A DNA stretch of 24,700 nucleotides from positions 1-24,700 of IMG/VR virus record IMGVR_UViG_3300043788_000351; one strand, given 5' to 3'. Origin of the DNA: a virus. A program made the translations under genes and the position numbers. Each line of letters begins with the position of its first letter. The first letter of the stretch is position 1. Below, one piece after another: positions 2,497 through 21,395 of this stretch. The notes under the pieces are model-generated. The model did no database searches. It saw nothing but the letters and a program-made list of their open reading frames with translations, and was not told the DNA's origin.

Positions 2497-2708
2497 CGCT
2501 CGATGACCTTGATGACGAGATTCTTCGCGAGAACGCCCACGGTGCGGTGACCGCTCGGCGTGAAAGCGACGCCACATCCCTTGCCCGCGGCGTCGTCCAC
2601 GCATGCGTGAGTGCGATGCGGGCGCGTCGCCCATTCACCCTCGTCTATGTGCTGCTTCTTGCACACGGGACAGTGGAGGACGACCGGGATGACCTCGGCT
2701 TGGCTCAT
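2493..2708 (-). CDS. Small zinc-ribbon protein of a conserved phage type
   Basis: A 71-residue protein starting MSQAEVIPVVLHCPVCKK. It carries CPVC, the block HIDEGEWATRPHRTH, then a Cys and a further GC-containing loop, which together suggest one zinc site. The pattern CPxC-x2-QHIDEGEWATRPHRTH is common in small phage proteins of unknown role. Both ends overlap neighbours by ATGA. Its first residues, MSQAE, match those of the next gene upstream, which suggests that the gene junction was duplicated. Confidence 0.8.
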   Translation of the reverse strand: MSQAEVIPVVLHCPVCKKQHIDEGEWATRPHRTHACVDDAAGKGCGVAFTPSGHRTVGVLAKNLVIKVIER

Positions 2709-3618: not shown

Positions 3619-5916
3619 TCAGTCGATCGGGCCGGAGCCGCCCTTGTCGCCGAGCACGTGGCTCGTCTCCGGAACCTCGCGCGGCCGGTCGTCCTCGAAG
3701 ACGGCCTGCGTATCCCCGTTGTGACCGTGGATAGCGATAGCATGGCGCATGTTGTCGAAGAGCGTCGTCGACGCGTTGGCGCCGCGCCAGCGAAGCGCCA
3801 CCTTGCCGTCCGGGAACTCGACGCCGTCCGCAACGTGACCCGTACCGCTCACGCCGGTCGAGTCCTTCGAGCGCATGAGCCGGAAGACCCGCGGACCGCC
3901 CTTGTCGTCGTAGCGCACGAGGCTCCTCGGTCCCGGGGCGCCCGAGACGCCGGCGAGCTCGAGGATCTCCTCGCAGCGGTTCTCCTGCACGGCTTGATTG
4001 TTCCGCGCCTCCGCGACGCGCGAAGATCCGGCCTGAGCTGGCGCGTGTCCGACGCCGGCGTCGGCGATCTTGAACCACGCCGCCGCCGCGATCTTCGCCT
4101 TCTGGTAGGCCGCGTCCCTGGCGCTCGTCATCGCCGTCCTGCGAGCCTCGTCGCCCGGAGCGTTGGCGTAGATCCGCGACGCGTCCTCGAGCGCGAGCCA
4201 CGCCGCGTCGGCCTCCATCGTCAGCACCTTCGCGGCGTCCCACGTCGGGAGCTCGGCGAGGATCTCGTCGGCGCTCGCGGCGTCGAGCTTGAACCCGAAC
4301 GTCCCCTCGTCGTCCGGCGAATTCGGCGACACCTCGGGGCTCGATGCGCGCGACCATCCGGGTCCGGCGCCGATCGGCTGACGTAGCTCCTCGTCGATCG
4401 CTTTCTCCTCGGGGCTCGCTTCCTCGGGCGCGGCGGCCGCCATCTTCACCATGTCCGTCTCGAGCACCTTCTCGTAGACCTCGGTCTCGTCCTTCGAGAG
4501 CACGATGTCCGTCGAGAAGCCTCCCGGCGCGAAGCGGTGGAGCGCGACCTTCTCGGGGCTGATCGCTTGGTTCTGGATGTAGATTTGATCAGACTGCGCC
4601 GTCTGGAACATGCGCTGCGCTTGCACGAGCGGCGTCTCCGTCCAGAGCGGCGGGAACTTCACCGAGAGCTTCTCGGGCGTCTTCTTGACGAGCTCCTTGC
4701 CCGCCTTCGTCGCAAGCCAGATCGACGTGAGGCGCCGGAGCTTCGGCGCGAGCTCGATCGCTTGGAGCGACCTCACGCGGTCGTAGAACCATCGGAAGTC
4801 CGACTCGCCCGTCGCGTTCATGCCCGCCGGGCTCTGCCCCATCAGGATCGTCACCGGGATCTGGACGGCGGCCGCGAGCCGGAGCATCAGCTTGTCGAGC
4901 GTGTCGGGGATGCCGGTGAACGACGTCGACGTCCGCTCGAAGCCCTCGTCCGAATCCTTGTCGACGACGATGGCCCGCATGACCGAGCGGTAGAAGTCCG
5001 TCTGCCTCGCGCGCGCGGAGACGTACTCTTCGCTCTTGCTCGCGATCGCTTCGGCGAGGCCAGTCATCTTGAAGATGCTTTGGAAGCCGTCGGTGAGCAG
5101 CGTCTCGGCCGCGCGGTATCCCGTGTTGAACGAGCGAAGGACGTCGTAGGCGCGCTGCAAGACCGAGAGGTCCCAGCCCACGAGCTCCATGCGCTCGCGG
5201 ATGCCGGTCGGCGCGCCGCGGAAGATGATGAGCCGCGACTCGTGCACCTCCATCGTGTTGTAGACGGTGCCGCCGACCGTCGTGACGAGGTACGTCCGCG
5301 GCAACCCGAGGAACGGGTGGCCGGGCTCGTCGTACCAGGACACGGGCCAGAGGAGCCGCCGGTCGACGACGTAGAGATAGTTGATGTCGTCGGCGAGGTT
5401 CTCGTTCAGCGGCATGACGGCGTCGCGCCCGTCGTCGGCGCCGACCACGACCGCGCCTCCACCGAAGCATCGCCCCCACCTCATCCCCTCGGCGAACTTG
5501 CCCCGCACGTCGAGCGCGTCGAACTTGTCGGCGACGAAGCGATCGGCGTCGGCGTCGCCCGTCTCCATCATGAAGCCCTCGCGCATCATCTCCTGCGGGA
5601 TGATGTCGACCATCCGCGCCGCGATGTCGTCGGAGTGGTAGAGCGCGCTGAGCTCCTGATCGGAGAGGCGTCGGCTCGGCAGGATGAAGCCGTGCTCGCT
5701 CTTGTCGCGGCGCGTGCCGAAGCCGGTGACCTCGTTCACCCACGCGTCCATGCGCGAGGCGCCGATCACGAGGTTCGCGGCGGAGCGCTGCGCGAACTGC
5801 GCGATGGCGCGGACCATCGCGCTCTTGGGCATCGGGAGCGGCTCGGACGGGGAAGGTTCGCGGTAGCTCGAGCCGGCCGACCCGAAGAGGCCGACGATCT
5901 TGTCGCCCATGCTCAT
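3619..5916 (-). CDS. Phage portal protein, DUF1073 type, with an extra C-terminal domain
   Basis: A 765-residue portal, the ring protein through which DNA enters and leaves the capsid. Residues 60-480 carry portal-type features: a FILPSRRLSDQELSALYHSDD block near residue 80, DIIPQEMMREGF near 108, a glycine-rich WGRCFGGGAVVVGADDG stretch near 150, and the late block VQIPVTILMGQSPAGMNATG. Residues 480-640 are an acidic, Ala-rich helical region. Residues 675-745 hold a separate domain (DSTGVSGTGHVADGVEF, VALRWRG, IHGHNG) that I recall as a small domain of unknown function in phage and actinobacterial proteins. The family is sometimes labelled Acb1-like in databases, but the context (terminase upstream, Mu gpF-like protein downstream) makes portal the right reading. 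About 765 residues is long for the family because of the tail. Confidence 0.85.
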   Translation of the reverse strand: MSMGDKIVGLFGSAGSSYREPSPSEPLPMPKSAMVRAIAQFAQRSAANLVIGASRMDAWVNEVTGFGTRRDKSEHGFILPSRRLSDQELSALYHSDDIAARMVDIIPQEMMREGFMMETGDADADRFVADKFDALDVRGKFAEGMRWGRCFGGGAVVVGADDGRDAVMPLNENLADDINYLYVVDRRLLWPVSWYDEPGHPFLGLPRTYLVTTVGGTVYNTMEVHESRLIIFRGAPTGIRERMELVGWDLSVLQRAYDVLRSFNTGYRAAETLLTDGFQSIFKMTGLAEAIASKSEEYVSARARQTDFYRSVMRAIVVDKDSDEGFERTSTSFTGIPDTLDKLMLRLAAAVQIPVTILMGQSPAGMNATGESDFRWFYDRVRSLQAIELAPKLRRLTSIWLATKAGKELVKKTPEKLSVKFPPLWTETPLVQAQRMFQTAQSDQIYIQNQAISPEKVALHRFAPGGFSTDIVLSKDETEVYEKVLETDMVKMAAAAPEEASPEEKAIDEELRQPIGAGPGWSRASSPEVSPNSPDDEGTFGFKLDAASADEILAELPTWDAAKVLTMEADAAWLALEDASRIYANAPGDEARRTAMTSARDAAYQKAKIAAAAWFKIADAGVGHAPAQAGSSRVAEARNNQAVQENRCEEILELAGVSGAPGPRSLVRYDDKGGPRVFRLMRSKDSTGVSGTGHVADGVEFPDGKVALRWRGANASTTLFDNMRHAIAIHGHNGDTQAVFEDDRPREVPETSHVLGDKGGSGPID

Positions 5917-6110: not shown

Positions 6111-6145
6111 AAAGACACGCCGCGCCGATGTCGCCCCTGCGGGTG

Positions 6146-6190
6146 TCGCGATCTTCGAGGCGTCGCGAAGCCGTTGCAATCATCCTATAA
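6146..6190 (-). repeat. 45-base dispersed repeat, copy A
   Basis: One of four near-identical copies. Read on the minus strand it starts TTATAGGATGATTGCAACGG and ends in AAGATCGCGA. It contains an internal hairpin, CTTCG/CGAAG with an 8-base loop. Here the element supplies the TAG stop codon of the 70-residue gene at 6185-6397 and lies 36 bases upstream of the tRNA-like sequence. It differs from copies C and D only at its second base. Confidence 0.93.
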
Positions 6191-6397
6191 CTGACCACGA
6201 GTACCCTCCAGGTAATCGATGCGCCGGTGCGCCTGCTCTAAGTCAGCACGGAGCAGGCGAAGTTCCTCGCCCAACGCAACGACGATGTCGGCGAGATCGA
6301 GCACATCGACAACTTCGTCGGCGCGCGGCGGCCTCATCCGCTTCTCCGCCGCCGCCTTCACGATCGTCCCCCACTCCGTCTCCGCGATGCTGTTCAT
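6185..6397 (-). CDS. Small coiled-coil hypothetical protein
   Basis: A 70-residue protein of unknown function. Residues 1-22 are mixed (MNSIAETEWGTIVKAAAEK). Residues 28-65 form a long heptad-like helix (VVDVLDLADIVVALGEEL, then LRADLEQAHRRIDYLEG), so it probably forms a coiled-coil dimer. Its TAG stop comes from the inserted 45-base repeat, so the original C-terminus may have been longer: without the element the frame continues by at least 15 codons. Confidence 0.6.
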   Translation of the reverse strand: MNSIAETEWGTIVKAAAEKRMRPPRADEVVDVLDLADIVVALGEELRLLRADLEQAHRRIDYLEGTRGQL

Positions 6398-6406
6398 CGC
6401 GGTTGT

Positions 6407-6649
6407 TTATGGCGCGGGCTCGTCGATCGCGTGGGCCACGTCCTCCATGCTCGCCCCGTATTCGATGACGTGAACCGACGAAGCGCCGCAGAGATCGCAG
6501 CGCTTCACCTTCGTCGCGGAGGTCTTCCACCGTTGGTCGGCGCAGCATCGGCGCGCGCACGCGTCGCAGAGCGCGGTCGTCTCGCGCGGGGGATGCTCGT
6601 TCACGGCTTCGACGGTAGGCGAAAAGAACAAACGGATCGCGTCAAACAT
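6407..6649 (-). CDS. Small zinc-binding protein
   Basis: An 80-residue protein with CDACARRCC at about residues 28-36 and CDLCG at about 51-55, a likely four-cysteine zinc site. The N-terminus is MFDAIRLFFSPTVEAV. It lies 9 bases after the terminase stop and before the coiled-coil gene, in the same direction. The function is unknown. A role in packaging or in binding nucleic acid is possible from the position but is not shown. Confidence 0.65.
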   Translation of the reverse strand: MFDAIRLFFSPTVEAVNEHPPRETTALCDACARRCCADQRWKTSATKVKRCDLCGASSVHVIEYGASMEDVAHAIDEPAP

Positions 6650-6658
6650 CGTGTGGGG

Positions 6659-8107
6659 TCATGGCGCGGCCGGCGTCGGCTTGGAGAGATTGCCCATCAC
6701 CGCCGCGAATAGCGGGTTCGGCGCCGTCCTGGCGTAGTTAGCGAGCGCGAGCGCCCACGCGTGATCGCCATGCCCCTCGGACGTGTGGGGCGTCTCGTAG
6801 CGGACGTTCGCGGCGTCGGTGATGACTCGCCTGATGGAGGCGACCTCGCGGCGTAGCTGCCGCGCGACGCCGACGTGCTCGGGAGCGACCGCGAGGTTCT
6901 CGTCGTTCATCGGCAGGAGGAGCGTCTTGTTCGTGATCGCCGTGAAGAGGCCGGTTGCGAGCGCCTCCTTGCTCTTCGGCGTGAACTCCACGAGCTCGAC
7001 GCGCGGCCGCTGGTTGGCGGGGACGAACTTCTGGGAATGCTTCTTCTGGAGATCCTCCGACACCATCGCGCCGAGGCCAGTCGAGTCGATGCAGAGCCGC
7101 TTCGGATGGACATCGGAGAAAAGCTCGCCAACGATCTTGTGAAGGAGCGCCGTGTCCGTCCGCTTGAAGGTCCGCACCCGCCACACCTTCGCGACGCCAC
7201 GAAGACTCTGGACGATGATAAGCACCGTGCGATCGACCACCCGCCCGATGTCGAGGCCGGCGAAGTAGTCGACCATGTCGTTCTCCTCCCATGCCTCGTC
7301 GAACGTCGCCTCGTCGATGGCCTCGGTCGCGATGTACTGAAACGCGTTGTCGAGAAACGAGCACCGGAACTCCTGATCGAAGATGCGCTTATCGCCTTGC
7401 GCGATGGCCCAGCACTTCTCGATGTCGACCGGGTAGCCCTGCTCGATCGCCTTCTCGATCGGGATCTCGTGTGCGCTCCACGTCGCCTTCGGCATGTCGC
7501 CCGGCGAGTAGTCGGGGTCGGTCGCGATGCGCCACGTATTGTGAAACTCGTTGCCGACGCCGTTCGGCGTGGAGACGACGCGAAGCTTCAGGCCTTGCAG
7601 CATCGTCACCGCGCCGGCGTTCTTCCACGCGCGCGTCGCCTGCTTCATGTGCCCGAACTCGTCGAGAATGACGTTCGCCGTGAACGAGCGCCCCGCGGTC
7701 GCCGGTAGTGTCGTGATCGCGCCGCCCGAGTGAAAGACGATCTCGTCGGCGTTGCTCTTGATCGTCCGTGCCATCTTCGAGCCCGCCCACTCGAGGAAGG
7801 CGACGTGCTTCAGGCACTTCGCGAAGAGCCCTTCGTCCGCCTCGCGCTCGCCCTCGCTGAGGAGCACCGTGTGCTCGCCGAGGTAGGCCCCCCACAAGAC
7901 GGCGATGCCGCCGGTCGCGAAACCGATCCCGATCTGGCGGCTCTTGTTGCAGACGGCGAAGGACGCGTCGTCGAGGAGCCACTCGCGCTGGAACCGATAG
8001 TAGCGATCGACCCAGAGCTCGAAGATGCGGAACTCCTCGGGCGGCAAGTTCGCGCGAAATTGCTCGAAGACGCGGTCGGCCCGCTCGGTCGCCGTCTCGA
8101 GCGTCAT
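6659..8107 (-). CDS. Terminase large subunit (packaging ATPase-nuclease)
   Basis: The 482-residue motor that pumps DNA into the capsid and cuts it. The ATPase region has CNKSRQIGIGFATGG near residues 53-67 as a variant Walker A, VILDEFG at 146-152 as Walker B with its catalytic Glu, and the coupling motif VVSTPNG at 177-183. The RNase H-like nuclease has three acidic sites: D286 in AGLDIGR, D341 in CIDSTG and D448 in GHGDHAW. The start overlaps the small-subunit stop by ATGA. The Walker A lacks the usual GKT(S), a deviation also found in other phage terminases. All other motifs look intact and the length is normal. Confidence 0.9.
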   Translation of the reverse strand: MTLETATERADRVFEQFRANLPPEEFRIFELWVDRYYRFQREWLLDDASFAVCNKSRQIGIGFATGGIAVLWGAYLGEHTVLLSEGEREADEGLFAKCLKHVAFLEWAGSKMARTIKSNADEIVFHSGGAITTLPATAGRSFTANVILDEFGHMKQATRAWKNAGAVTMLQGLKLRVVSTPNGVGNEFHNTWRIATDPDYSPGDMPKATWSAHEIPIEKAIEQGYPVDIEKCWAIAQGDKRIFDQEFRCSFLDNAFQYIATEAIDEATFDEAWEENDMVDYFAGLDIGRVVDRTVLIIVQSLRGVAKVWRVRTFKRTDTALLHKIVGELFSDVHPKRLCIDSTGLGAMVSEDLQKKHSQKFVPANQRPRVELVEFTPKSKEALATGLFTAITNKTLLLPMNDENLAVAPEHVGVARQLRREVASIRRVITDAANVRYETPHTSEGHGDHAWALALANYARTAPNPLFAAVMGNLSKPTPAAP

Positions 8108-8760
8108 TCGGCGGCGTCGTCGACGGGCTTGTGCTCGACGCCGTTCGCCGCCTGCCCGTTCGTGTACGGCTTCGACGCGCGCCCGAAGACCTCGCGCATC
8201 TTCGCCGCTGCCTCCTGCGGCCCGATGTGGCTCGTCTCGATCGGGCCGCCGTCGCGCCCGGTGTGCTCGTGCTGATGCTTGTTCCCCGTCCCGAGCGCGA
8301 GGCTCATGTCGCGCTGAGCCTTGAGGATGATCAGCGCCGCCTTCGGGTCGCCGGGGATCTTCACCTCGCGGGCCTTGCCCGTCCTCGGATCCTTCTCGAC
8401 GACGGTGCGCGTGATGGCCCGCGGCATGTACTCGCGCTTCACGCGATCGAGCTGCGCGAAGCCCTCCGTGAAGAACTCCTCCACGCGCTGCGTGTGGCTC
8501 TTCTTGTAGTCGGCGAACGCGAGGTCGTAGTAGCGGAGGACCGTGCGGTGATCGATGTCGAGCTCGCGGCCGATCATCGCGAAGGTCACGCCGTTGATCC
8601 GCATGTCGAAGACGCGCTTCGTCAGCTCGGCCTCATGCGCCTTCGTCGCCTCGCTCTTCATCTTCTCCGGCTGCACCTGCGTCCCCGTCGCTTGATGGTG
8701 CCGCCGCTTCTCCTCGCGGGTCTTCTCCGGCCTCGGAGCCCGCGGACTTCGCGCCCTCAT
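8104..8760 (-). CDS. Terminase small subunit-like DNA-binding protein
   Basis: A 218-residue protein directly upstream of the large terminase and overlapping it by ATGA. Residues 49-78 (KRVFDMRINGVTFAMIGREL, then DIDHRTVLRYYDL) form a helix-turn-helix of the kind terminase small subunits use to find the packaging site. The middle is helical, and the C-terminus is polar. I chose the ATG at 8760 because GC at third codon positions is high from there on, while the overlapping upstream gene frame loses it. An alternative start is the ATG at 8661 (MKSEATK). The upstream frame overlaps this gene by 128 bases. The call rests on position plus HTH; I cannot place it in a named family. Confidence 0.72.
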   Translation of the reverse strand: MRARSPRAPRPEKTREEKRRHHQATGTQVQPEKMKSEATKAHEAELTKRVFDMRINGVTFAMIGRELDIDHRTVLRYYDLAFADYKKSHTQRVEEFFTEGFAQLDRVKREYMPRAITRTVVEKDPRTGKAREVKIPGDPKAALIILKAQRDMSLALGTGNKHQHEHTGRDGGPIETSHIGPQEAAAKMREVFGRASKPYTNGQAANGVEHKPVDDAAE

Positions 8761-9250
8761 GCTCTGACGGATAGCACGGGCCAGGGTCGTTCGCGATCGC
8801 GGTATATCCATTCGGATAGCAGTGCGTGGCTCGGTAGAGGCCGTGTCCGACGCGCTCGACGTGGCCGTTCGCTCGAAGTTTCGTGATGTGAACGCCGACG
8901 GTCCCGTAGGAGACGCGACCCTTGAGGTCGCGGACGATGTCGCGGAGGTGGAAGGGTCCGGGCGAGCGCTCGACGATGTCGAGGACGGCGGCGATCTTGC
9001 TCTCGGGGTGGGGCCGCTTGTGCGATGGCGGGTTTCGTCGAAGGGGTGGGGGCGCCGCGGGGGGCCATACCTCGATGCCCTCGGGCTTCGGGTAGCGGTA
9101 GGGCGCGGGGGGCGGGACGCGAGGGATCTCGTCGGTGAGGCGGCCGTGGCTGATGAGCAGGGTCGCGATCTGCCGATAGGCCGCGAGGCGATCCTCGTAG
9201 AAGTTCAAGATGCCGGCGAGGCGGAAGAGCTCGTCCTGTCGGGTCGGCAT
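8633..9250 (-). CDS. Winged-helix DNA-binding protein
   Basis: A 205-residue protein. Residues 1-40 are helical (MPTRQDELFRLAGILNFYED), residues 43-80 are proline-rich, and residues 83-142 form a winged helix (SKIAAVLDIVERSPGPFHLR, GTVGVHITKLRANGHVERVG). After about residue 165 the sequence turns low-complexity and acidic, and third-position GC drops where it overlaps the small terminase gene, so the true C-terminus may matter little. It could regulate late genes or assist packaging-site recognition. Neither role is shown by sequence. Confidence 0.68.
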   Translation of the reverse strand: MPTRQDELFRLAGILNFYEDRLAAYRQIATLLISHGRLTDEIPRVPPPAPYRYPKPEGIEVWPPAAPPPLRRNPPSHKRPHPESKIAAVLDIVERSPGPFHLRDIVRDLKGRVSYGTVGVHITKLRANGHVERVGHGLYRATHCYPNGYTAIANDPGPCYPSEHEGAKSAGSEAGEDPRGEAAAPSSDGDAGAAGEDEERGDEGA

Positions 9251-9269
9251 CGGGATCACCCGGGTCTGA

Positions 9270-9650
9270 TCATCCGTCGTCCTCGTCTTCGTGAAGATTC
9301 TCGCGGAGTCCGTTGTCGAGAATCTCGCGAAGCACCTCGCACGCGCGACCGACATTCTTCTCCATCTTGCCGGCGCTGCCGAGCGGATCGATCTTGAGGT
9401 TGCCGAGCGCGAGCTCGAGCGACTCGACGACGGCGAGGATCCTCGTCGCGCGCGCGGTGCGGTCCTCTTGCGGCGGGGGTTGGGCGGTCGACCACGTGAA
9501 ATAGAAGTCGCCCGCCTCGTAGCCGTTCCCGTTTGCTAACTCCGCGGCGAGGATCGAGAGGCACGCGGCCCCCATCCTTCGCTGAAGATCGGTCGCGTGT
9601 TCAGGCAGTCGGGGTAGTCGGGGCAGTCGGGGCCTGACGGGAGCGGGCAT
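9270..9650 (-). CDS. Hypothetical phage protein
   Basis: A 126-residue protein of unknown function. It starts with a proline/arginine-rich stretch encoded by a short tandem repeat (LPRLPRLP), followed by a helical core (MGAACLSILAAELANGNGYE) and a charged C-terminus rich in Glu and Asp. GAGG upstream of the ATG at 9650 supports this start. It begins 8 bases after the preceding gene stops. Confidence 0.6.
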   Translation of the reverse strand: MPAPVRPRLPRLPRLPEHATDLQRRMGAACLSILAAELANGNGYEAGDFYFTWSTAQPPPQEDRTARATRILAVVESLELALGNLKIDPLGSAGKMEKNVGRACEVLREILDNGLRENLHEDEDDG

Positions 9651-9658
9651 GCGCCTCG

Positions 9659-9913
9659 TTATGGCGCGTCGATCCTGCATAGGGCCCAACCAACGCCGAT
9701 CCCGATGAGGCAGGCGCCGTCGTCGAGGGTGACGCCTCGGATCGCGACTTGGATCGCGTGGTGGTCGCAGAGCTCGGTGCGCGGGGCGCGCCTGCCTTCG
9801 TTCATGAGCGCGTGGCGGGCGGGCAGGCCGCAGACTGGCCACGGCGACCGCGGGCCCCTTGGGCGGCCCGTCACGGCGCGGCATCGGGGGTTCCGAGGGA
9901 CGCGGGGCCTCAT
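9659..9913 (-). CDS. Small Cys/His-rich protein
   Basis: An 84-residue protein. Cys and His residues are spaced like a zinc-ribbon protein: C12, then C28-GLPARH, then LCDHH near residue 55. The C-terminal half is strand-like (AIQVAIRGVTLDDGACLIGI). The ATG at 9913 overlaps the upstream TGA as ATGA. An inner ATG at 9805 would give a 48-residue version without the first cysteines. The function is unknown. Confidence 0.55.
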   Translation of the reverse strand: MRPRVPRNPRCRAVTGRPRGPRSPWPVCGLPARHALMNEGRRAPRTELCDHHAIQVAIRGVTLDDGACLIGIGVGWALCRIDAP

Positions 9914-10146
9914 CGGTGCCGCCGGAGCCGGCCCGTGCTGAGGCGCTCGTAGTAGAGATCCATGGACGGCCACGCCGGCGGAGGCGTCGGAGGAAAGCGG
10001 GGCGCGTTGTCGTTCGCCGGAGCGCCGGGCCAGCCCCACGCGAAGACGCCGCGAGGCGATCGATCGGGGACGAAGACGCCCGACTCCGCCGACGAGCGGA
10101 AGACCCTCATCGCGTCGCGGCCGAGGTGGGGAAGCGGCTCGATCAC
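9910..10146 (-). CDS. Hypothetical small phage protein
   Basis: A 78-residue protein, not recognised. It has an Arg-rich start (MIEPLPHLGRDAMRVF), a Trp/Gly patch (GVFAWGWPGAPANDNAP), and a proline-rich stretch before YYERLSTGRL. Both ends overlap neighbours by ATGA, which supports it as a real member of the operon. Confidence 0.55.
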   Translation of the reverse strand: MIEPLPHLGRDAMRVFRSSAESGVFVPDRSPRGVFAWGWPGAPANDNAPRFPPTPPPAWPSMDLYYERLSTGRLRRHR

Positions 10147-10340
10147 GACTCCACCAGCCCGTACCCATTACGACGGTCAAGGTGGTCGATCTCGCGGAGC
10201 TCACGCGCCACCCTCAGCCCAGCAGGGCAGAGCGTACAGTACCCGCGCGGGCCCGCGTAGGGCTCGTACCCGGTGTCGTCGCACATCTGGCATGGCTCAT
10301 TCGCGGGTGACGCGGGAGTAGTGCGCGGTTCGCTAGCCAT
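10143..10340 (-). CDS. Small zinc-finger protein with a CxxC pair
   Basis: A 65-residue protein. CQMCDDTGYEPYAGPRGYC followed by TLCPAG gives two CxxC knuckles, similar to the zinc repeats of DnaJ-type proteins; one zinc is likely. Its N-terminus contains RTTPASP, also found in the gene at 19124-19309, together with an 18-base stretch that matches at 17 positions (10309-10326 and 19284-19301). It overlaps both neighbours. Confidence 0.6.
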   Translation of the reverse strand: MASEPRTTPASPANEPCQMCDDTGYEPYAGPRGYCTLCPAGLRVARELREIDHLDRRNGYGLVES

Positions 10341-10560
10341 CGTCGTTCAGCTCCTCGACAACCGCCTCGAGACGAATCTGGAGATCAGCGATCAACTCAG
10401 CGAGAAAATCGCGATACGTCTTCTTGGTCATATGGTCCGGCGAGGTCACGTCATCGAGCACGCGCTCGAGTGTTGCACGGGCAATCGCCTTCGCCGCCGT
10501 TCCTCTTGCCTTCTTGAGCGACCCAGTAGAAGTGCGTCCATCGGCCGTTTCACGAGCCAT
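10333..10560 (-). CDS. Hypothetical helical protein
   Basis: A 75-residue protein of unknown function. The first 25 residues are basic and polar (MARETADGRTSTGSLKKARG). The rest is two helices (AIARATLERVLDDV and FLAELIADLQIRLEAVVEEL), so a small helical dimer is plausible. It overlaps the next gene by 8 bases and the upstream gene by 11. Confidence 0.58.
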   Translation of the reverse strand: MARETADGRTSTGSLKKARGTAAKAIARATLERVLDDVTSPDHMTKKTYRDFLAELIADLQIRLEAVVEELNDDG

Positions 10561-10756
10561 GTGCCTGCCTCCATTCGTGCGCCTCTCGGATCGACTCCAC
10601 CCGGTAGGCCTCGAACTCCTCGTCGCTCATCGCGAAGAGGTTCACTCGCGCGGCCTCCCGCATCACCGCGCGCCGACCCATGGTGAGCGTCTGACTCCCG
10701 TGGGACAGGCGGTAGATGACGACGAGGAGGCGCCTCGCGTCCCGCTCGGTGCTCAC
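10550..10756 (-). CDS. Hypothetical small phage protein, GTG start
   Basis: A 68-residue protein. The GTG start at 10756 overlaps the preceding TGA as GTGA; a longer frame upstream is rich in Arg and unlikely to code. The content is a basic strand-like part (ARRLLVVIYRLSHGSQTL) followed by a helix (EEFEAYRVESIREAHEW). The function is unknown. Confidence 0.55.
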   Translation of the reverse strand: MSTERDARRLLVVIYRLSHGSQTLTMGRRAVMREAARVNLFAMSDEEFEAYRVESIREAHEWRQAHGS

Positions 10757-11118
10757 CGCTGCACCTTCGTTTCGGTAGCGCACTCGACTACGTCGACGGC
10801 AGCCGCGTATTCGGCCTCGGGATCGAGCCCGACGCGCTTGCACATCTCATAAGCGCGCTTCGCCTCGCTGACCGCGTTCCGGTAGATGAGCCGCGCGTAT
10901 TCGGGCGAGTCGACCTTCTTCGTGATCGCGACGCACTTGGCTCTCTCGTCCGCGCGCACGTTGGCGATGAGCTTGAGGACGTTGTCCCGATGCTCCGAAG
11001 CGCACGCGTCGAGGGCTTGGTCGGGAGGAAGCATATCGTCCCAAGCCTTCCGCGCGTGATGGATCGAGGTCAGCCGCTCCTGCTCGAAGAACGCGTCCGC
11101 GCGCTCGTCGTCGGTCAT
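10753..11118 (-). CDS. Hypothetical helical protein
   Basis: A 121-residue, mostly helical protein starting MTDDERADAFFEQER and ending ECATETKVQR. A GGAGGCGATAGA sequence just before the ATG is one of the clearest ribosome sites in the window and fixes the start. No known motif is seen. It is charged, with two cysteines far apart. Confidence 0.65.
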   Translation of the reverse strand: MTDDERADAFFEQERLTSIHHARKAWDDMLPPDQALDACASEHRDNVLKLIANVRADERAKCVAITKKVDSPEYARLIYRNAVSEAKRAYEMCKRVGLDPEAEYAAAVDVVECATETKVQR

Positions 11119-11158
11119 TCTATCGCCTCCCCATGCGTCGTGGTTATGGCGCGCGCGG

Positions 11159-11344
11159 CTACCCGAGCGAGGACGAGTCGGTCTTCCACTCGCCGCGCCG
11201 GATGGCGATGGCCTTCTTCCGGAGCTCGGCGGCCACGACGCCGGAGGTGGGGTCGCCCTTCTTGTAGGCCTGCTCATATCCCTCGGCGTGGCCCTCGAGC
11301 CAGATCGCGATCCGCTTGGAGGTCTCCGCCTCGTGCCTCGTCAT
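11159..11344 (-). CDS. Hypothetical small protein
   Basis: A 61-residue charged, helical protein (MTRHEAETSKRIAIWLEGHA, then VVAAELRKKAIAIRRGEW). The ATG at 11344 was preferred to an upstream ATG at 11377, which would overlap the preceding gene. The function is unknown; coding is supported by third-position GC and by its place in a same-strand series. Confidence 0.5.
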   Translation of the reverse strand: MTRHEAETSKRIAIWLEGHAEGYEQAYKKGDPTSGVVAAELRKKAIAIRRGEWKTDSSSLG

Positions 11345-11363
11345 GCGCGGATGGTTAGCACGC

Positions 11364-12083
11364 TCACCGCGAGCCACCCACGCGCCCGAGCGTCTCGTTG
11401 AGGTGCATCCCGAGCCCCGTCAGGAGGAGCCGCGCGCCGTCGAGCGAGCGATGCGCGAGCGACGAGGCAAGGAGAGCGCGCTCGAGGATCGGATCGCCGA
11501 TCGGGAGCTCCTCCCCGACCTGCCCGATCGCCCACTCGACCCGCGTTCGCTCCTCTGTCGACGCGCGCGCGAGCTCCTTCGGCTTGACGCGCCGCGAGGA
11601 GAGAACCGTCCGGACCGCCCCATCGGCCGCCGCGTTCCTCCACTCGACGATCTTCGTCCGGACGAGGCGGCCGGGCGTGTGCGACGGCGCCCACTTCTCG
11701 AGGTCGCAGACCATCTTCGCCGTCGCCACGAGCGTCGCGTCGCCGGGCGTCTCGACGTAGCCCTGCGCCACGAGCTCCGCGAAGTCCGCCGCGCTCGAAC
11801 GAACGAGCGTCGCGATGGGCTCGGCGCCGTCGAGCACGTCTCGCCGGACGGCGGCCGCGATCATGGAGCCCGAAACGCGGTCGTCCCAATCGAGATCGTG
11901 CTTCGCTAGGGTTCGGACGAGGATCGCGGCCGCGACGAGCATGGATCGATGCTTCTCGTCGACCACTTCCGAGTCCTCGAAGGGCAGCGGGGGCGCGACG
12001 ACCACGTCCGCCGGCGAGAAGTAGACGGCGTGCTTCGGCGCCGGCGCGGGATCGTCGAGGACGAAAGGCTGATTCGGATCCAT
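11364..12083 (-). CDS. Hypothetical protein, divergent from the REC-EAL gene
   Basis: A 239-residue protein of unknown function. Residues 1-40 are polar and proline-rich. The rest is helical, with three or more amphipathic helices (MLVAAAILVRTLAKHDLDW, SSAADFAELVAQGYVETPG, LERALLASSLAHRSLDGAR). No catalytic motif is recognised. It begins 62-101 bases from the plus-strand EAL gene, so the short gap between them must hold promoters for both directions or be transcribed through. No Shine-Dalgarno is obvious. Confidence 0.68.
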   Translation of the reverse strand: MDPNQPFVLDDPAPAPKHAVYFSPADVVVAPPLPFEDSEVVDEKHRSMLVAAAILVRTLAKHDLDWDDRVSGSMIAAAVRRDVLDGAEPIATLVRSSAADFAELVAQGYVETPGDATLVATAKMVCDLEKWAPSHTPGRLVRTKIVEWRNAAADGAVRTVLSSRRVKPKELARASTEERTRVEWAIGQVGEELPIGDPILERALLASSLAHRSLDGARLLLTGLGMHLNETLGRVGGSR

Positions 12084-12184
12084 CGATCGGGTAATAGCGC
12101 CCCGAACCGCTCGACGCCGCTCCGAAGCCCGTTCACTCTCGGGGGATGGTCGACACGCCTCGCCAAGTCAGGCGACAACCGCAG

Positions 12185-13360
12185 ATGACCGATCGCCCGA
12201 GGATCCTCATCGTGGAGGACGAAGCGGGCCTCCGGACCGTCCTCGATCGCGCTGGGCGGAAGCTCTTCTCGGTCGTCATCGTGGGCGACGGGAACGAGGC
12301 CGCGGACCTCCTCACCCACGAAGCCTTCGACGTCGTCTTGTCGGACGTGATGCTCCCCGGGATGAGCGGCCTCGATCTCCTCCGCATCGCCCGCGCCTAC
12401 GATCTCGACGTCCCATTCATCCTCATGACGGGGCACGCCGAGGGACGAAAAGCGAAGACGGAGGCGATCGAGCTCGGCGTCCTCACCTTCATCGAGAAGC
12501 CCTTCGACATCCCGACCCTGATGAAGACCCTCGAGCGGACGGCGCGCCTCTCGAGGATCGGGCGGGTCCGTCGATGGGCCGCCGACGCTGGGATCGGCTC
12601 GCCCCTGCCGAGCGACGGCGCGGGTCTCGCGGCATGCTTCGACCGCGCTCTCTTCGAGCTATTCGTCGCCTACCAGCCGATCGCGCGGGCCATGACCGGC
12701 GAGACCGTCGGCTACGAGGCGCTGGCTCGGACCGCGGAGCCGTGCATGGCCTCACCGTTGGCGTTCGTGGAGGCCGCGGAGAAGCTCGGGAGGACGGCCG
12801 ACTTCGGGCGCGCGGTGAGGGAGCTCGCGGCGCTGGGCGTCGAGGCGATCCCCGGGGATCTCTATGTGAACCTCCACCCGATGGATCTCGCCGACGACGC
12901 GCTCTTCGACCCGTCGGCGCCCCTCTCGAAGATCGCGAGCCGCGTCGTTCTCGAGGTAACCGAGCGCGCGGGCCTCCACGCCGTTCCCGACCTCGTCGAG
13001 CGGATCGCGCGGCTCCGCGGCATGGGCTTCCGCATCGCCCTCGACGACATGGGAGCGGGCTACGCCGGGCTCTCGGCGTTCGCGGCCCTCGAGCCCGACG
13101 TCGTCAAGCTCGACATGTCGCTCATTCGCGGGATCGACTCGTCGCCGGTGAAGGCGCGGATCGTCGAGGCCTTCGGCAAGCTGGCCCGCGAGCTCGGGAT
13201 GCAGGTCGTCGCCGAAGGCATCGAGACCGGGAGCGAGCTCACCGCCGTCGTCGACCTCGGCGTCGACCTCGTGCAAGGCTTCCTCCTCGGGCGCCCCGAT
13301 CCGAAGCCGACGCCCGCGTCGACGTGGTCGCTGCCGCCTCGGGGTGGCGCGGCGGCGTAG
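12185..13360 (+). CDS. REC-EAL response regulator, c-di-GMP phosphodiesterase
   Basis: A 391-residue cytoplasmic enzyme predicted to hydrolyse c-di-GMP to pGpG under phosphorelay control. The receiver domain (residues 5-120) has the acidic pair at E11-D12, phospho-acceptor D54 (VLSDVM), T82 (LMTG) and K105 (IEKPF). The EAL domain (about 155-375) keeps the metal and catalytic residues: YEAL (E178), NLHP (N229), LEVTE, the DD pair 287-288 (ALDDMGAGY), K308, E344 (VAEGIET) and Q364 (VQGFLLG). I chose the ATG at 12185, five residues before the receiver domain; the ATG at 12146 would add 13 residues. It lies on the opposite strand to the phage operon, like a moron gene. No histidine kinase is in the window. 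Such enzymes are common in bacteria and unusual in phages. Confidence 0.92.
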   Translation: MTDRPRILIVEDEAGLRTVLDRAGRKLFSVVIVGDGNEAADLLTHEAFDVVLSDVMLPGMSGLDLLRIARAYDLDVPFILMTGHAEGRKAKTEAIELGVLTFIEKPFDIPTLMKTLERTARLSRIGRVRRWAADAGIGSPLPSDGAGLAACFDRALFELFVAYQPIARAMTGETVGYEALARTAEPCMASPLAFVEAAEKLGRTADFGRAVRELAALGVEAIPGDLYVNLHPMDLADDALFDPSAPLSKIASRVVLEVTERAGLHAVPDLVERIARLRGMGFRIALDDMGAGYAGLSAFAALEPDVVKLDMSLIRGIDSSPVKARIVEAFGKLARELGMQVVAEGIETGSELTAVVDLGVDLVQGFLLGRPDPKPTPASTWSLPPRGGAAA

Positions 13361-13364
13361 CTCG

Positions 13365-13409
13365 TAATAGGATGATTGCAACGGCTTCGCGACGCCTCGA
13401 AGATCGCGA
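13365..13409 (+). repeat. 45-base dispersed repeat, copy B
   Basis: This copy lies on the plus strand, five bases after the TAG stop of the REC-EAL gene, and reads TAATAGGATGATTGCAACGG at its start. The second base differs from the other copies. Downstream it is followed by CCGACAGATTGA, while copy C has the reverse complement of GACAGATTGA at its opposite end. It has the same orientation as the gene it follows, like copies A and C. Confidence 0.93.
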
Positions 13410-13436
13410 CCGACAGATTGATGTAAACTCGGCCGC

Positions 13437-15046: not shown

Positions 15047-15228
15047 CTCGATCCGTACTTCCGATGGAGGTGGCTCATCGCGACGATCACGCGCTTCGCC
15101 TTCCGCTGGCTCGTCCCCGCGAGGTGGGCGACGAGCAGGATGATCGCCTTCCGCTTCGCCGGCGACGGCTCGTCGAGGACCGAGCGCGCGACCGAAGACA
15201 TCGCGAGGAGGTGAGCGTCGAGGCTCAT
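15043..15228 (-). CDS. Hypothetical small basic protein
   Basis: A 61-residue basic helical protein (PAKRKAIILLVAHLAGTSQR, then KAKRVIVAMSHLHRKYG). No known family is recognised. It overlaps both neighbours by ATGA, so it is coupled to the Dam-like gene. Nucleic-acid binding is possible from the charge. Confidence 0.6.
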   Translation of the reverse strand: MSLDAHLLAMSSVARSVLDEPSPAKRKAIILLVAHLAGTSQRKAKRVIVAMSHLHRKYGSR

Positions 15229-16145
15229 GCGCCGACCGCCTTTCGGTTCTCGAAGCGCGCCGCGTGCGGGTCGTAGCTCGTCATCACGAGCTCACCGACG
15301 CCCCCGCGCTTCGCGCCGTTCGAGTTGATGTTCCGCCTCACCTCGAGCCGCTCGATGTGGAATGCGCCAGCGTAAAGCTCGCGCACGCTCGGGAGGTCAT
15401 GGTTCGAGAGCATCACGAGCGCGCCGCGCTTCGCCGCGCGACGAGCCGCCTCAGCGAGCCTCGTCTGATCGCCCATCCGGAAGTTCGCCTTCGCGTAGGC
15501 CGTGAAGTTCGCCGTCCCGCCCATCGGCACGTAGGGCGGGTCGCAGTAGACGAAGTCTCCGTCGGTGCACGAGTCGAGGATCTTCTCGAAGTCCGCCGGC
15601 ATGTCGGCGAGGCCGATCGACGTGTATCGGTTCAACGCGCGCGAGCAGGCTCGTAGGTTCTCCTCATCGTAGAGCGCGACGTTCGTGCGCTTGCCCCATG
15701 GCGTGTTGAAGCGCCCGGCCTTATTCGTCCGATAGAGGCCGTTGAAGCACGTCTTGTTCAAGTAGATGAACCACGCGCCGACGGCCGCCGCCTTCCCCGG
15801 CGAGCCCGGAGCGATGTCGCGAAGCGGATCGAAGTCGCGGACCTTGTAGTAAGCGGCTTCGGTGAGCTTCATCCCGTCGAGCCGCCTCATGAGGTCGTCG
15901 ACATCGTCGCGGACCGCGCGGAGCGTGACGACGAGCGCGGGGTGGACGTCTGAGACGAGGTAGCAGCCGCGCACCGAGCGCTCGCCGGCGGCCTCCAAGC
16001 GGCGCATCTCCCAAAAGAGCGCGCCGCCCCCGATGAACGGCTCGACGTAGTCGCCGCGGATCTCGCTCGGGATGCGCGCGAGGAGCTCGGGGAGGCTCGA
16101 CGTCTTCCCGCCTGCCGCCTTGATGTATGGGCGCGGGACGCTCAC
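15225..16145 (-). CDS. Dam-like DNA adenine-N6 methyltransferase (D12 class)
   Basis: A 306-residue enzyme that would transfer a methyl group from AdoMet to adenine N6 in DNA. Residues 7-14 (YIKAAGGK) and 34-45 (VEPFIGGGALFW) form the AdoMet-binding motif I. LNKTCFNGLYR at 129-139 is typical of the Dam group, and DPPY at 202-205 is the catalytic motif. The GTG start overlaps the upstream gene by GTGA. The likely target is GATC or a relative, as in Dam, but the specificity is not proven here. Phages use such orphan methylases to escape host restriction or to mark packaging sites. No partner restriction enzyme is seen. Confidence 0.88.
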   Translation of the reverse strand: MSVPRPYIKAAGGKTSSLPELLARIPSEIRGDYVEPFIGGGALFWEMRRLEAAGERSVRGCYLVSDVHPALVVTLRAVRDDVDDLMRRLDGMKLTEAAYYKVRDFDPLRDIAPGSPGKAAAVGAWFIYLNKTCFNGLYRTNKAGRFNTPWGKRTNVALYDEENLRACSRALNRYTSIGLADMPADFEKILDSCTDGDFVYCDPPYVPMGGTANFTAYAKANFRMGDQTRLAEAARRAAKRGALVMLSNHDLPSVRELYAGAFHIERLEVRRNINSNGAKRGGVGELVMTSYDPHAARFENRKAVGA

Positions 16146-16348
16146 CACGTCTCCGTGAGGCGCTCGCCGAGCTCCCAAACGTTCTCCGCCCCGATCGACA
16201 GATCGAAGAAGCCGACCGTCTCGCCGCGACGGAGCCGCCTCGCGACGAGCTCCGCGGGATGAAAGAGCCGGACCTTGCCGTCCTGCGACACGATGAGCGC
16301 GATCCCCGGCGGCGCCTCGGGCGACGCGATGTCGACCTTCGCTTTCAC
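16142..16348 (-). CDS. Hypothetical small protein, GTG start
   Basis: A 68-residue protein of mixed alpha/beta character (VKAKVDIASPEAPPGIALIV, then VRLFHPAELVARRL). The GTG at 16348 overlaps the DHH stop as GTGA, and its own stop overlaps the Dam-like start as GTGA. No function is recognised. Confidence 0.6.
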   Translation of the reverse strand: MKAKVDIASPEAPPGIALIVSQDGKVRLFHPAELVARRLRRGETVGFFDLSIGAENVWELGERLTETW

Positions 16349-17352
16349 GCGTGCACCCCCATAACCGACCAATCGCTGACGAGCTTGTCGATCGCCCCGA
16401 ACGGGTCGCGGATGTTGCTCACGCGGCAGCCGGCGGCGCCCGTGTGCCCTCCCCCGCCATAGTGCTTCGCGAAAGCCGCGCAGTCGAAGCGATCGCGCCC
16501 CGGGCGCCCGCGGGAGCGAAGCGAGAGCTGCGTCGAGGACGCGTCCGTCGCCGGGTCCCACGCGTGCGAGAAGCCGACGACGAGATCTACTTCATCGGCG
16601 ACGATGTCCGCGAGGTCGGAGGTCTCGATCGTCGGGACGATCAGGAACGTGAAGCCGCCGCGGGCGATGATGCGGCCGCGGGCGATGTCCCCCTGAGCCT
16701 TCCGATGGGCGCGGTCGACGAGGATCTCTCCCGCGCCGAAGATCGGGGCGAGGCCGATGTCGAGCCTCCCCGCGAACGGCGTCGCCGGGATCCGTTCGAG
16801 CGGCCAGAAGCGGAGCCCCTCTGCGAGCGCGCACGCGACGTCCCAGTCTGGCGACTCGCGGACCCACGTGTCGCGGATGCCCGCGAGCCGCGCGAACTCG
16901 AAGGCGTTCCGATCCTCGGAGTCGAAGAGGTCGACGCGCGCGGCGTCGCCCGGGGCGGCCTCGGGGTGAGCCATCGGGAACCACGCGTAGCGGAACGCGA
17001 GGACGGCGCCCGAGACGCCGCGCTCTAGCGTCTCGTCCCCGAAGACGCCGCGCTCTGCCGCCGCAAAGCGGAGGACGGTGTCCTTGTCCGTCTTGTGATG
17101 GTCGAGGACGATCGCTCCCGCCGCGAGGTAGCCCTCGATGTCCTCGGCGCGCGGGCAGACGTCGCAAAAGAGCATCTTGTCCTGCGGCGGAGCGATCTTC
17201 TTCACGTCGAGGTGCGACGCGAACAGGATCTTCGCATCCGGGAAGACGTCGCGTAGGAGGACGGCGGAGGCCGTCCCGTCGGGGCAAGCCGAGTCGGGGT
17301 TGCGATGGCAGACGACGATCTTCACGTCATCGAGCCGCGAGCGTTTGATCAT
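16345..17352 (-). CDS. DHH/DHHA1 family phosphoesterase
   Basis: A 335-residue enzyme of the DHH superfamily, which includes NrnA-type nanoRNases, pAp phosphatases and cyclic-dinucleotide phosphodiesterases. The metal motifs are seen in order: CHRNPDSACPDGTASA at 15-30, FCDVCPR around D64, and LDHHKT at 83-88. The C-terminal DHHA1 motif GGGGHTGAAG is at 299-308. The length is normal. CHRNPDSACPDG is a variant of the usual HxNxDxD, so the substrate is hard to predict. With the EAL enzyme in the same genome, pGpG or short oligonucleotides are attractive substrates, but this is inference. Repeat copy C ends 18 bases before the ATG. Confidence 0.88.
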   Translation of the reverse strand: MIKRSRLDDVKIVVCHRNPDSACPDGTASAVLLRDVFPDAKILFASHLDVKKIAPPQDKMLFCDVCPRAEDIEGYLAAGAIVLDHHKTDKDTVLRFAAAERGVFGDETLERGVSGAVLAFRYAWFPMAHPEAAPGDAARVDLFDSEDRNAFEFARLAGIRDTWVRESPDWDVACALAEGLRFWPLERIPATPFAGRLDIGLAPIFGAGEILVDRAHRKAQGDIARGRIIARGGFTFLIVPTIETSDLADIVADEVDLVVGFSHAWDPATDASSTQLSLRSRGRPGRDRFDCAAFAKHYGGGGHTGAAGCRVSNIRDPFGAIDKLVSDWSVMGVHA

Positions 17353-17370
17353 GGACAGGCTTATGACGCG

Positions 17371-17415
17371 TCGCGATCTTCGAGGCGTCGCGAAGCCGTT
17401 GCAATCATCCTATCA
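17371..17415 (-). repeat. 45-base dispersed repeat, copy C
   Basis: Identical to copy D. The element begins TGATAGG on the minus strand; its first three bases, TGA, are the stop codon of the winged-helix gene 17413-17646. Reading on in the same frame meets TAG and then stays open into the DHH gene, whose ATG is in the same frame 63 bases later. Removing the 45 bases would fuse the two genes. Confidence 0.93.
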
Positions 17416-17646
17416 CGACAGATTGAGGACGCGGACGCCGAGCGGCGTGAGGGTGTAGACGCCGAACCGCGACCCCGTGACTCCCCCGCGACGAAGCCAA
17501 CCGCGCCTGATGCAGACCGAGATCGCGCCGTAGAAGCCGCCGTGCTGCGAGCCGCCGGCGCACCTCGCGAACGGGTCGCCGCAGGACTTCACGTCCTCGA
17601 GAACCTGCCGCTGCGCCGCCGTCAGCGGGCTCCTCGCGGGCCTCAT
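17413..17646 (-). CDS. Small winged-helix protein
   Basis: A 77-residue protein. It has a helix (TAAQRQVLEDVKSCGDPF), a recognition-like segment (GGFYGAISVCIRRGWLRRGG) and a wing (SRFGVYTLTPLGVRVL), resembling small MarR/PadR-type winged helices. It could be a phage regulator. The start overlaps the glycosyltransferase stop by ATGA. Its stop TGA lies in repeat copy C, and the frame would continue into the DHH gene without the element. Confidence 0.7.
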   Translation of the reverse strand: MRPARSPLTAAQRQVLEDVKSCGDPFARCAGGSQHGGFYGAISVCIRRGWLRRGGVTGSRFGVYTLTPLGVRVLNLS

Positions 17647-18728
17647 GCTCCCGACGACGGCGCGGGGAGCTCGGGCTCGGTCGACGGCGGAGGAGGCACG
17701 TCGGACGGGTCGACGACCGGCGGGCGGTTGACGAAGGTCTCGGTCACCGTGTCGATCCCGATCCCGGCCGCGATGAGCGCCTCCTCCGAATACGCCCCCA
17801 CGTCGACGAAGAACTCGGCGTCCCTCGGGTAGGAGCACTCGCGAGCGGCGTTGGCCCACCTCGCGGCATTCGGCGCGTCGCCGACCTTCATGAATGCCTC
17901 GGCGAGCTCCCTCATCGGCTCGGCGCGCTTCGGCGCGAAGTGATGGGCCGCGAGCCCGCGCGACACGATCTCGTCGTGCTCGATCGGGAGCCAGCGGGCG
18001 ATCTTCGCCGCCCAGAGGTGCGCCCAGAAGGTCTCCTCGACGTTCGTGCTCTCCATCGCCGCGCGCGCGAGGAACGCGTCGTAGGCGTCGCGCTGGCGGC
18101 CCGCGTCGCGGAGAGCGTAGGCGCGGTAGAACGCGGAGCGCGGGTCGCCGTTCTCGTCCGGGATCGCGGCCTCCGCCTTCTCCGCGACGGCGCCCCAATC
18201 CTTCGCCTCGCCCGTGACCGAGTTGAAGACGAGCCCGTCCCATCGCCTCACGTGCTCGGGCGGCACGATGAGGATCTCGTGCATCCCCGCCGCCGTCCCC
18301 TTCCACTCGTAGGGGAGCCTCGCGCGCTGGAGGTGCCCCCTTCGGATCCATCGCCACCGACCGCCCGGGAAACGATGGTCGACCGGGATCGCGTAGGCAT
18401 GGACGTCCGCCGGCGTGCCGGCGAGATCGGGGAGCTCACCCGTGAAGATCGCGTGAGCGTCAAGCATGAGGACCCAGTCGACGTCCGGATCCTCGCCGGC
18501 GGATCGATAGACCGCCGTGCGCGTGTCGGCGTAGCCGAGCCAGCCCTGACAGACGACCGACGTTCGGAGCGAGTTCGGCGCGCGGTCGATGAGCTCGTCC
18601 TTCCACTCGTCGGGCGTCGCCGGCGAGACCACGACGACGCAGCGATCGACGAAGTCCTTCGCCGACCGGATCGCCGTGAGAACGGTGTCGACGGGCGCGC
18701 GGGCCATGATCGCGAGGGCAACGGTCAT
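17643..18728 (-). CDS. Glycosyltransferase-like protein (GT-A fold) with helical repeats
   Basis: A 361-residue protein. Residues 1-160 look like a GT2-type domain: MTVALAIMARAPVDTVLTAI, strand VVVVSP, then WVLMLDAHAIF at 85-95 with a D-x-H in the place of DxD, and MHEILI near 149-154. Residues 190-330 carry TPR-like helix pairs (FYRAYALRDAGRQRDAYDAF, then ETFWAHLWAAKIA). The C-terminus is Pro-rich. It may glycosylate phage DNA, virion proteins or host surface sugars; the acceptor is unknown. The ATG at 18728 overlaps the upstream stop by ATGA. Confidence 0.75.
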   Translation of the reverse strand: MTVALAIMARAPVDTVLTAIRSAKDFVDRCVVVVSPATPDEWKDELIDRAPNSLRTSVVCQGWLGYADTRTAVYRSAGEDPDVDWVLMLDAHAIFTGELPDLAGTPADVHAYAIPVDHRFPGGRWRWIRRGHLQRARLPYEWKGTAAGMHEILIVPPEHVRRWDGLVFNSVTGEAKDWGAVAEKAEAAIPDENGDPRSAFYRAYALRDAGRQRDAYDAFLARAAMESTNVEETFWAHLWAAKIARWLPIEHDEIVSRGLAAHHFAPKRAEPMRELAEAFMKVGDAPNAARWANAARECSYPRDAEFFVDVGAYSEEALIAAGIGIDTVTETFVNRPPVVDPSDVPPPPSTEPELPAPSSGA

Positions 18729-19045
18729 CGTCGCGCCGCCTTCCGCGCACGCTTCGCCTCTGCCGCGTTGATGGTCTCGAGCTGCTTCTCGGGCGGTCGC
18801 TCGTTCCGCTCCGCCGTGCACCGCTCGACGCCGTCGCCGGAGATCTCGGTGAGCTTCTCGAGGACTTTCCCCATCGCCGTCCCGCGCGGGGCGGTGATTA
18901 TCCTGCCGCCGGGGGAGAGCGCCTCGTCCGCGCCGAGGAGCGTCGATCCTCTGCTCGACCCGTCGCGGACCTTGAGTGGCCCGCTCATGATGTCCCGCGC
19001 GAGCGCCATCGTCTCCTCGCTCGCCGGCGTCCTCGTCTTCCTCAT
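18725..19045 (-). CDS. Hypothetical basic protein
   Basis: A 106-residue protein with a short helix (SEETMALARDIM), a Gly/Ser-rich loop (VRDGSSRGSTLLGADE) and a basic C-terminal helix (LETINAAEAKRARKAARR). A GGAGGGAAG site lies just upstream of the ATG and fixes the start. The function is unknown. Confidence 0.62.
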   Translation of the reverse strand: MRKTRTPASEETMALARDIMSGPLKVRDGSSRGSTLLGADEALSPGGRIITAPRGTAMGKVLEKLTEISGDGVERCTAERNERPPEKQLETINAAEAKRARKAARR

Positions 19046-20307: not shown

Positions 20308-21189
20308 CTACCACGGGAGATCATGACGCCTCTCACCGACGCGCCAGTGGACGCCCGCTGGCTCGACGTCCACGAGCAGCCGGCGCTCGGGCTCCGTGTT
20401 GTCGAAGACGTCGTTCCACTTCGCCTTCACATGCTCGATGAAAGCGCCACGCGGTGCGTAGATCGGGATGTCGCAGGCCTGAAGCCGCGCGGAGAGCATC
20501 CAGTCGCTCCCGTAGCCGCGCTCGGCGCCCGGCCTCGTGATCACGCGGAACGGGAAGCGACTCCACATGGCGAGGCTCATCCCGGTGAGACTCATCCCCG
20601 CGAAGTAGCTTCGAACGGGGTAACCCCATCGTTGTTCGGTCTCGGAGCCGTCTGCCTCGTCCTTCGTCATCCAGTCGTAGTCGCTGGCCACGCTCGTCTT
20701 TTCGAGGAAGTGGCGACGCGTGAGGTTCACGTGGGGGCGGACCGCGTCGAGGTTGCAATACGCCGTGACAACGTTCGCCTCTTGCATCGAGCCGATTCGC
20801 GTGAGCACCTTCTCGAGAGCATCCGCGGTCGGCACCGTGTCGTCGGAGAGCATGATCATATGCGTGTATGGCTCGCCGTCGAGCGGCGGTCGGTCGACCC
20901 TCACGCTCTTCTCGGAGACGCGATCGAGCTCCTCATCGGGCGATCGCGGCCACTTGTGGGTCCGCCGCTCGGCGAACCGAGTCAAGAGCGAGAATTTCTC
21001 GCCGCGCGCGACCTCGTCCTCGATGTCGGGGGTCGTGAGGGTCGCGAGCGTGACGACGGAGTCGACGATCGGCTCGAGCTCCTTCTCCGTCATGTTGCTG
21101 AGCCACACCTTGTCAATCGGCAAGGAGCGGATCGCTTCGATGCACCGCGGGTTGCGGCGCGGGTTCATCACCGCAAGGAACGGCTTCAT
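20308..21189 (-). CDS. Glycosyltransferase-like protein (GT2 type)
   Basis: A 293-residue protein with a GT-A pattern: N-terminal KPFLAVMNPRRNPRCIEAI, a nucleotide-binding acidic triad SDDTVP at 115-120, a later acceptor-type motif ERGYGSDWML at 223-232, and IEHV with H253 as a possible metal ligand. This order (DxD-like, acidic pair, His) is typical of family 2 enzymes. The donor and acceptor are unknown. The start ATG overlaps the upstream stop by ATGA; a longer frame upstream lacks coding character. With the 361-residue protein it makes a two-enzyme sugar-transfer set. Confidence 0.74.
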   Translation of the reverse strand: MKPFLAVMNPRRNPRCIEAIRSLPIDKVWLSNMTEKELEPIVDSVVTLATLTTPDIEDEVARGEKFSLLTRFAERRTHKWPRSPDEELDRVSEKSVRVDRPPLDGEPYTHMIMLSDDTVPTADALEKVLTRIGSMQEANVVTAYCNLDAVRPHVNLTRRHFLEKTSVASDYDWMTKDEADGSETEQRWGYPVRSYFAGMSLTGMSLAMWSRFPFRVITRPGAERGYGSDWMLSARLQACDIPIYAPRGAFIEHVKAKWNDVFDNTEPERRLLVDVEPAGVHWRVGERRHDLPW

Positions 21190-21395
21190 CGCTTCGCCTC
21201 CGGTTCCGCGTCCCACTTGCCTTCCTCGTCGGCGCGCCTCTCCTCTTCCTCCGAAAGCTTGCGGACGCTGAGGTGCTCGGCTCCGAAGTCCGCATCGCCT
21301 CCGACGAGCCGCGCCATCATCCACCGCTTCGCCTTCACCGGCGAGTCGGTGGTCGTGAGCATCGCGACCTTGAAGACGTGAACGTACTGACTCAT
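21186..21395 (-). CDS. Hypothetical small acidic protein
   Basis: A 69-residue protein. The first half is strand-like (MSQYVHVFKVAMLTTTDSPV) and the second half is a highly charged helix (SVRKLSEEEERRADEEGKW). It overlaps both neighbours by ATGA. No family is recognised. Confidence 0.58.
   Translation of the reverse strand: MSQYVHVFKVAMLTTTDSPVKAKRWMMARLVGGDADFGAEHLSVRKLSEEEERRADEEGKWDAEPEAKR

Follow-up and report, generated by a model that had tools for sequence, protein, structure and literature searches.

The window analysed here, 24,700 bases long, corresponds to one complete virus record, which is itself probably a fragment. One sign of this is part of a CcrM-like DNA methyltransferase (phrog_8769; 24404-24661, minus strand) that lies close to its right end and is probably truncated there. 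Its genes form a densely packed minus-strand array, which is broken by an island of two plus-strand genes (Table 1). The first of these encodes a predicted response-regulator phosphodiesterase with a receiver (REC) and an EAL domain. The strand switch at this gene, remarked upon in an earlier sequence-only reading of the same DNA, is real, with the added detail that a second plus-strand ORF follows. A sigma-70 promoter match was sought in the presumed promoter region that separates the REC-EAL gene from its divergent neighbour, and none was found; an Rfam scan of the window likewise returned no match.

Table 1. Features of the 24,700-base window, in order of position.
Feature	Position	Strand	Evidence and remarks
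Glycine-rich, tail-like protein	147-1400	-	Left of EAL gene
Mu F-like head protein	1666-2634	-	Left of EAL gene
Portal protein	3619-5916	-	PF06381 3e-71; phrog_146 9e-97
44-nt element copies	6145-6188, 17370-17413, 23255-23298	-	Identical to copy at 13367-13410
Terminase large subunit	6659-8107	-	Phage marker, Pfam/PHROG; same inter-repeat segment as EAL gene
ORF left of EAL gene	11364-12083	-	Divergent from EAL gene
Divergent intergenic region, 62 bp	12084-12145	.	Presumed promoter region, between ORF 11364-12083 and EAL gene
REC-EAL response-regulator phosphodiesterase gene	12146-13360	+	Pfam domains, residue check, AF2 model, PDB matches
Receiver domain	12203-12532	+	Residues 20-129; Pfam Response_reg PF00072 2.2e-21
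Phosphoacceptor D67 of receiver	12344-12346 (codon)	+	Residue check
EAL domain	12656-13297	+	Residues 171-384; Pfam EAL 7.2e-47; own-record EAL match
44-nt element copy	13367-13410	+	6 nt after EAL stop codon; not part of EAL system
Second plus-strand ORF, 107 aa	13437-13760	+	Zinc-finger-like cysteine/histidine pattern; weak NinG-like match, phrog_171 E 0.0015
Dam-type methyltransferase	15225-16178	-	Right of EAL gene; phage-type match
DHH/GGGH phosphoesterase-like protein, possible NrnB-type	16345-17352	-	phrog_4771 5e-23; motifs LDHHKTD, GGGGHTGAAG
RadC-like protein	23093-23584	-	Right of EAL gene

Elsewhere in the record, two minus-strand products (17643-18821 and 20308-21324) look glycosyltransferase-like by eye (e.g. 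DAH and SDD motifs), and had no match among Pfam, PHROG and NCBIfam models. At its C terminus the portal protein has a module (residues 670-745; 3682-3909, minus strand) that matches phrog_7499, a family of unassigned function; a similar module occurs in genome G074, there without a portal match.

The REC-EAL ORF is a single open frame running from an ATG to a TAG and encoding 404 aa plus the stop, although an alternative ATG at 12185 (Met14) may be the true start of the gene. The phage protein covers positions 12-236 of the 236 in the Pfam EAL profile, and its EAL domain scores 160.2 bits, above the cut-off of 31.3. Individual residues were checked in an alignment of the protein and 40 relatives from bacteria. 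In the receiver, the acidic pocket (D25, E26), the phosphoacceptor D67, T95 and K118 are all kept, while the EAL domain, with its EAL motif at residues 191-193, its DD at 300-301 and E357 as catalytic base, keeps the metal, substrate and base residues E191, N242, E270, E273, D300, D301, K321, E357 and Q377. All nine of these catalytic-site residues are invariant among the 41 aligned proteins. The coordinates, domain calls and intact catalytic residues given in the sequence-only reading were thus right, with one small correction: loop 6 of the phage EAL domain reads DDMGAGYAGL and differs from the textbook DDFG(T/A)GYSSL by three substitutions, the usual Phe and Ser being absent. These departures are common to the bacterial relatives (A307 in 36 and G308 in 38 of the 41 proteins) and so represent a trait of the subfamily, for which a test of activity was not found, rather than decay specific to the phage. 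The phage copy is complete and apparently in working order.

The predicted fold points in the same direction. An AlphaFold2 model of the protein (pLDDT 87.5) matches the catalytic EAL phosphodiesterases YahA, PA0575 and PdeA with Z about 25, and FimX and LapD are also among its fold matches. The match to RocR (3sy8) spans both domains, with 353 residues aligned at an rmsd of 16 that stems from a difference in how the domains are arranged; RocR is also the top PDB match by sequence (1.8e-28, over residues 19-387). The PvrR model (NF052596) aligns over residues 19-383 with 112.3 bits, well short of the curated cut-off of 580, such that the phage protein is not classed as a PvrR equivalog. FimX and LapD are EAL folds that serve as receptors, and together with the departure of loop 6 from consensus they raise the alternative that the phage EAL domain binds c-di-GMP without cleaving it, the protein being a sensor or regulator. 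Receptor-type EAL domains, however, usually lose metal or base residues, whereas here every one of them is kept, without variation across the 41 aligned proteins, and we regard a non-catalytic receptor as very unlikely.

That the gene is phage-carried is supported from both sides: terminase, portal and Mu F-like head genes lie to its left, and methyltransferase, DHH and RadC matches to its right. Flanks belonging to a host chromosome had been named beforehand as the finding that would speak against a phage-borne gene; this check was run and found phage genes on either side, and host-chromosome contamination was rejected as the source of the gene. One could still suppose that phage and host contigs were wrongly joined at the 44-nt repeat (see below), an identical copy of which adjoins the gene and might confuse assembly software. 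However, the EAL and terminase genes lie within one and the same inter-repeat segment (6191-13362), and mis-joining mediated by the repeat cannot have brought them together; moreover, the left boundary of the gene (12083/12146) is not a repeat. A chimera is therefore extremely unlikely.

The 44-nt element itself (ATAGGATGATTGCAACGGCTTCGCGACGCCTCGAAGATCGCGAC) occurs as four identical copies in the record, always sense to the upstream gene. At 6185 and 17413 the preceding ORF ends in a stop codon that the element provides or overlaps, while the copy at 23255-23298 forms a 15-residue in-frame insertion in the phage RadC, directly before its JAB motif (HNHPSG). This insertion is unique to the phage protein, being absent from the RadC proteins of all 11 Myxococcota genomes with which it was compared. 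The repeat beside the EAL gene had been taken as a sign of acquisition, a suggestion that did not hold up: the element stands at just one end of the gene and has three further copies elsewhere, including the one within RadC, and thus represents an independent mini-insertion rather than a mark of EAL gene capture. It resembles a tiny mobile insertion of an unfamiliar kind. No match was found with a 29-mer and a 20-mer of the repeat in IMG/VR, with a 25-mer pattern in the genome collection, or with the 44-mer, allowing three mismatches, in 183 genomes of the Polyangiales order, and plasmid and phage collections gave only weak partial matches. We rejected a CRISPR-type or host-derived repeat, given the absence of a collection match and of an array, and an ending unlike any of the CRISPR tail motifs that PMC11237760 gives for myxobacteria. 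We also rejected a stable hairpin or terminator, as the element folds no better than its shuffles.

The top full-length relatives of the phage protein among bacterial genomes are from Myxococcota. We searched for relatives in 183 genomes of the order to which a Sandaracinaceae genome belongs (Polyangiales), and in 114 of them a match reached 1e-70 or better, with top identities of 56-57%. Maximum-likelihood analysis places the phage protein in one clade with proteins from genomes G117-G125 (SH-aLRT 99.9, bootstrap 100), where it forms the outermost and longest branch. These bacterial copies are full-length homologues (49-57% identity) that agree with the phage protein in the checked residues and in the type of loop 6; they differ in being carried on bacterial genomes, with several paralogues in each, and no member of the clade has diverged further than the phage copy. 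Acquisition of the gene, as proposed earlier, is supported by this picture, its close relatives being without exception bacterial genes from Myxococcota. Phylogenetically, then, the REC-EAL gene is a captured bacterial gene, taken from a Polyangiales lineage or an unsampled relative and since diverged a good deal. Relatives of the portal protein also occur in genomes of the Polyangiales order, as do those of the phage RadC (up to 40% identical), and on this sequence evidence a Polyangiales-type Myxococcota host is likely.

Such a gene might be no more than a passenger, that is, a host gene that entered the phage through illegitimate recombination, recently and from an unsampled Myxococcota lineage, and of no benefit to the phage. 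The gene was found in one record only, its long branch could reflect an unsampled bacterial lineage, and its GC3 of 90.9% is the same as in the phage genes, which makes composition uninformative about the age of capture. Yet the gene is full length, lacks frameshifts and internal stops, and retains all of its active-site residues, and the plus-strand island to which it belongs interrupts a dense minus-strand array from which useless DNA should be lost. Of 127 positions at which nine relatives are invariant, the protein retains 108, and the 19 at which it departs include no active-site residue. That the active site has been kept whole despite the longest branch in the clade, with departures that avoid it, argues for a catalytic protein, and we consider a passenger unlikely.

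The reading that we favour, and consider more likely than not, takes this for an auxiliary gene that a phage of Polyangiales-type Myxococcota obtained from a host, and that encodes a RocR-like phosphodiesterase that is gated by a host kinase and lowers c-di-GMP to the advantage of the phage. It builds on the established domains, intact residues, predicted fold, position inside the phage record and bacterial origin of the gene. Were the gene expressed and its product active, D67 of the receiver would be phosphorylated by a histidine kinase of the host, and the receiver would then control the EAL domain, where c-di-GMP would be opened to pGpG. No kinase was recognised among the scanned ORFs of the record, which include only part of the small ones. 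The resulting drop in c-di-GMP may alter the surface polysaccharide or exopolysaccharide, the pili or the motility of the infected cell, and the phage might gain, for example, from down-regulation of its receptor against superinfection or from better release and spread. The earlier proposal that the enzyme lowers c-di-GMP, and through this acts on motility, biofilm formation or a signalling-based defence, is plausible. It is known that c-di-GMP can control phage infection: E. coli cells are guarded against phage N4 by PdeL, an EAL enzyme (PMC8669472).

A different benefit would be counter-defence, with the enzyme removing a cyclic dinucleotide alarm signal during infection, such as the c-di-GMP of STING-type CBASS. 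While c-di-GMP is indeed the substrate of EAL enzymes, and phosphodiesterases of jumbo phages (HD-GYP, DHH) have been predicted to counter nucleotide-based immunity (PMC7824862), the protein at hand comes from a bacterial Myxococcota signalling family and no anti-defence gene was recognised among its neighbours. Furthermore, its receiver is intact, a domain that a constitutive counter-defence enzyme could do without, and this retention argues for regulated signalling over an anti-defence role. Counter-defence is thus distinctly unlikely.

The signalling reading could be extended to a second gene of the record, the DHH protein. NrnB enzymes, which have DHH and GGGH motifs, degrade pGpG (PMC6256023, PMC12709177), and c-di-GMP turnover is subject to feedback from pGpG (PMC6256023). 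The two phage proteins might therefore form a two-step drain, in which the host-kinase-switched REC-EAL enzyme makes pGpG and the NrnB-like enzyme cleaves it to GMP, removing a feedback inhibitor and forcing c-di-GMP down. However, the DHH protein scores below the cut-off for Pfam PF01368, its PDB match is weak (0.057), and it has no good match to any characterised enzyme, for which reason we rate such a drain low. No relatives of the DHH protein were found in 16 genomes of the Polyangiales order or in 50,697 phage records.

A phage with an intact, receiver-gated c-di-GMP phosphodiesterase seems to be rare, and we found no second REC-EAL phage record. Nothing in the 50,697 phage records matched 80% or more of the REC-EAL protein, and single-protein scans of IMG/VR, run with the EAL, portal and terminase proteins as queries, found no relatives. 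An alignment-based scan of IMG/VR returned three EAL loci, two at contig ends (L142 and L144) and one in a plasmid-like setting (L143), none of which is a REC-EAL protein in a phage interior; in two distant prophage-like regions, the EAL gene was absent from the stretches examined. A search of the open-access literature found no paper on a phage-encoded REC-EAL protein.

Dependence of phage infection on host c-di-GMP is already known (e.g. N4 and PdeL, PMC8669472), and what is unusual here is the carrier of a known enzyme type. If active, the enzyme would make it possible to ask directly whether a host's sessile-motile switch is reset by its phages, and whether these leave the timing to a host sensor. 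Among viruses, enzymes of cyclic dinucleotide metabolism have also been reported for a Cariaco Mu-like virus, which carries a diguanylate cyclase (PMC7785012), and for jumbo phages with HD-GYP genes (PMC7824862). The available portions of these two sources describe no REC-EAL protein, and both enzymes differ from ours: the GGDEF protein makes c-di-GMP, and HD-GYP is unrelated to EAL. Among the closest known systems are RocR and PvrR, the REC-EAL c-di-GMP phosphodiesterases of Pseudomonas aeruginosa, with which the phage protein shares its architecture and all of the EAL catalytic residues. Nonetheless, it is only 28% identical to RocR and falls far below the equivalog cut-off for PvrR, and, unlike either, it is carried by a phage and stands outside the Roc kinase context.
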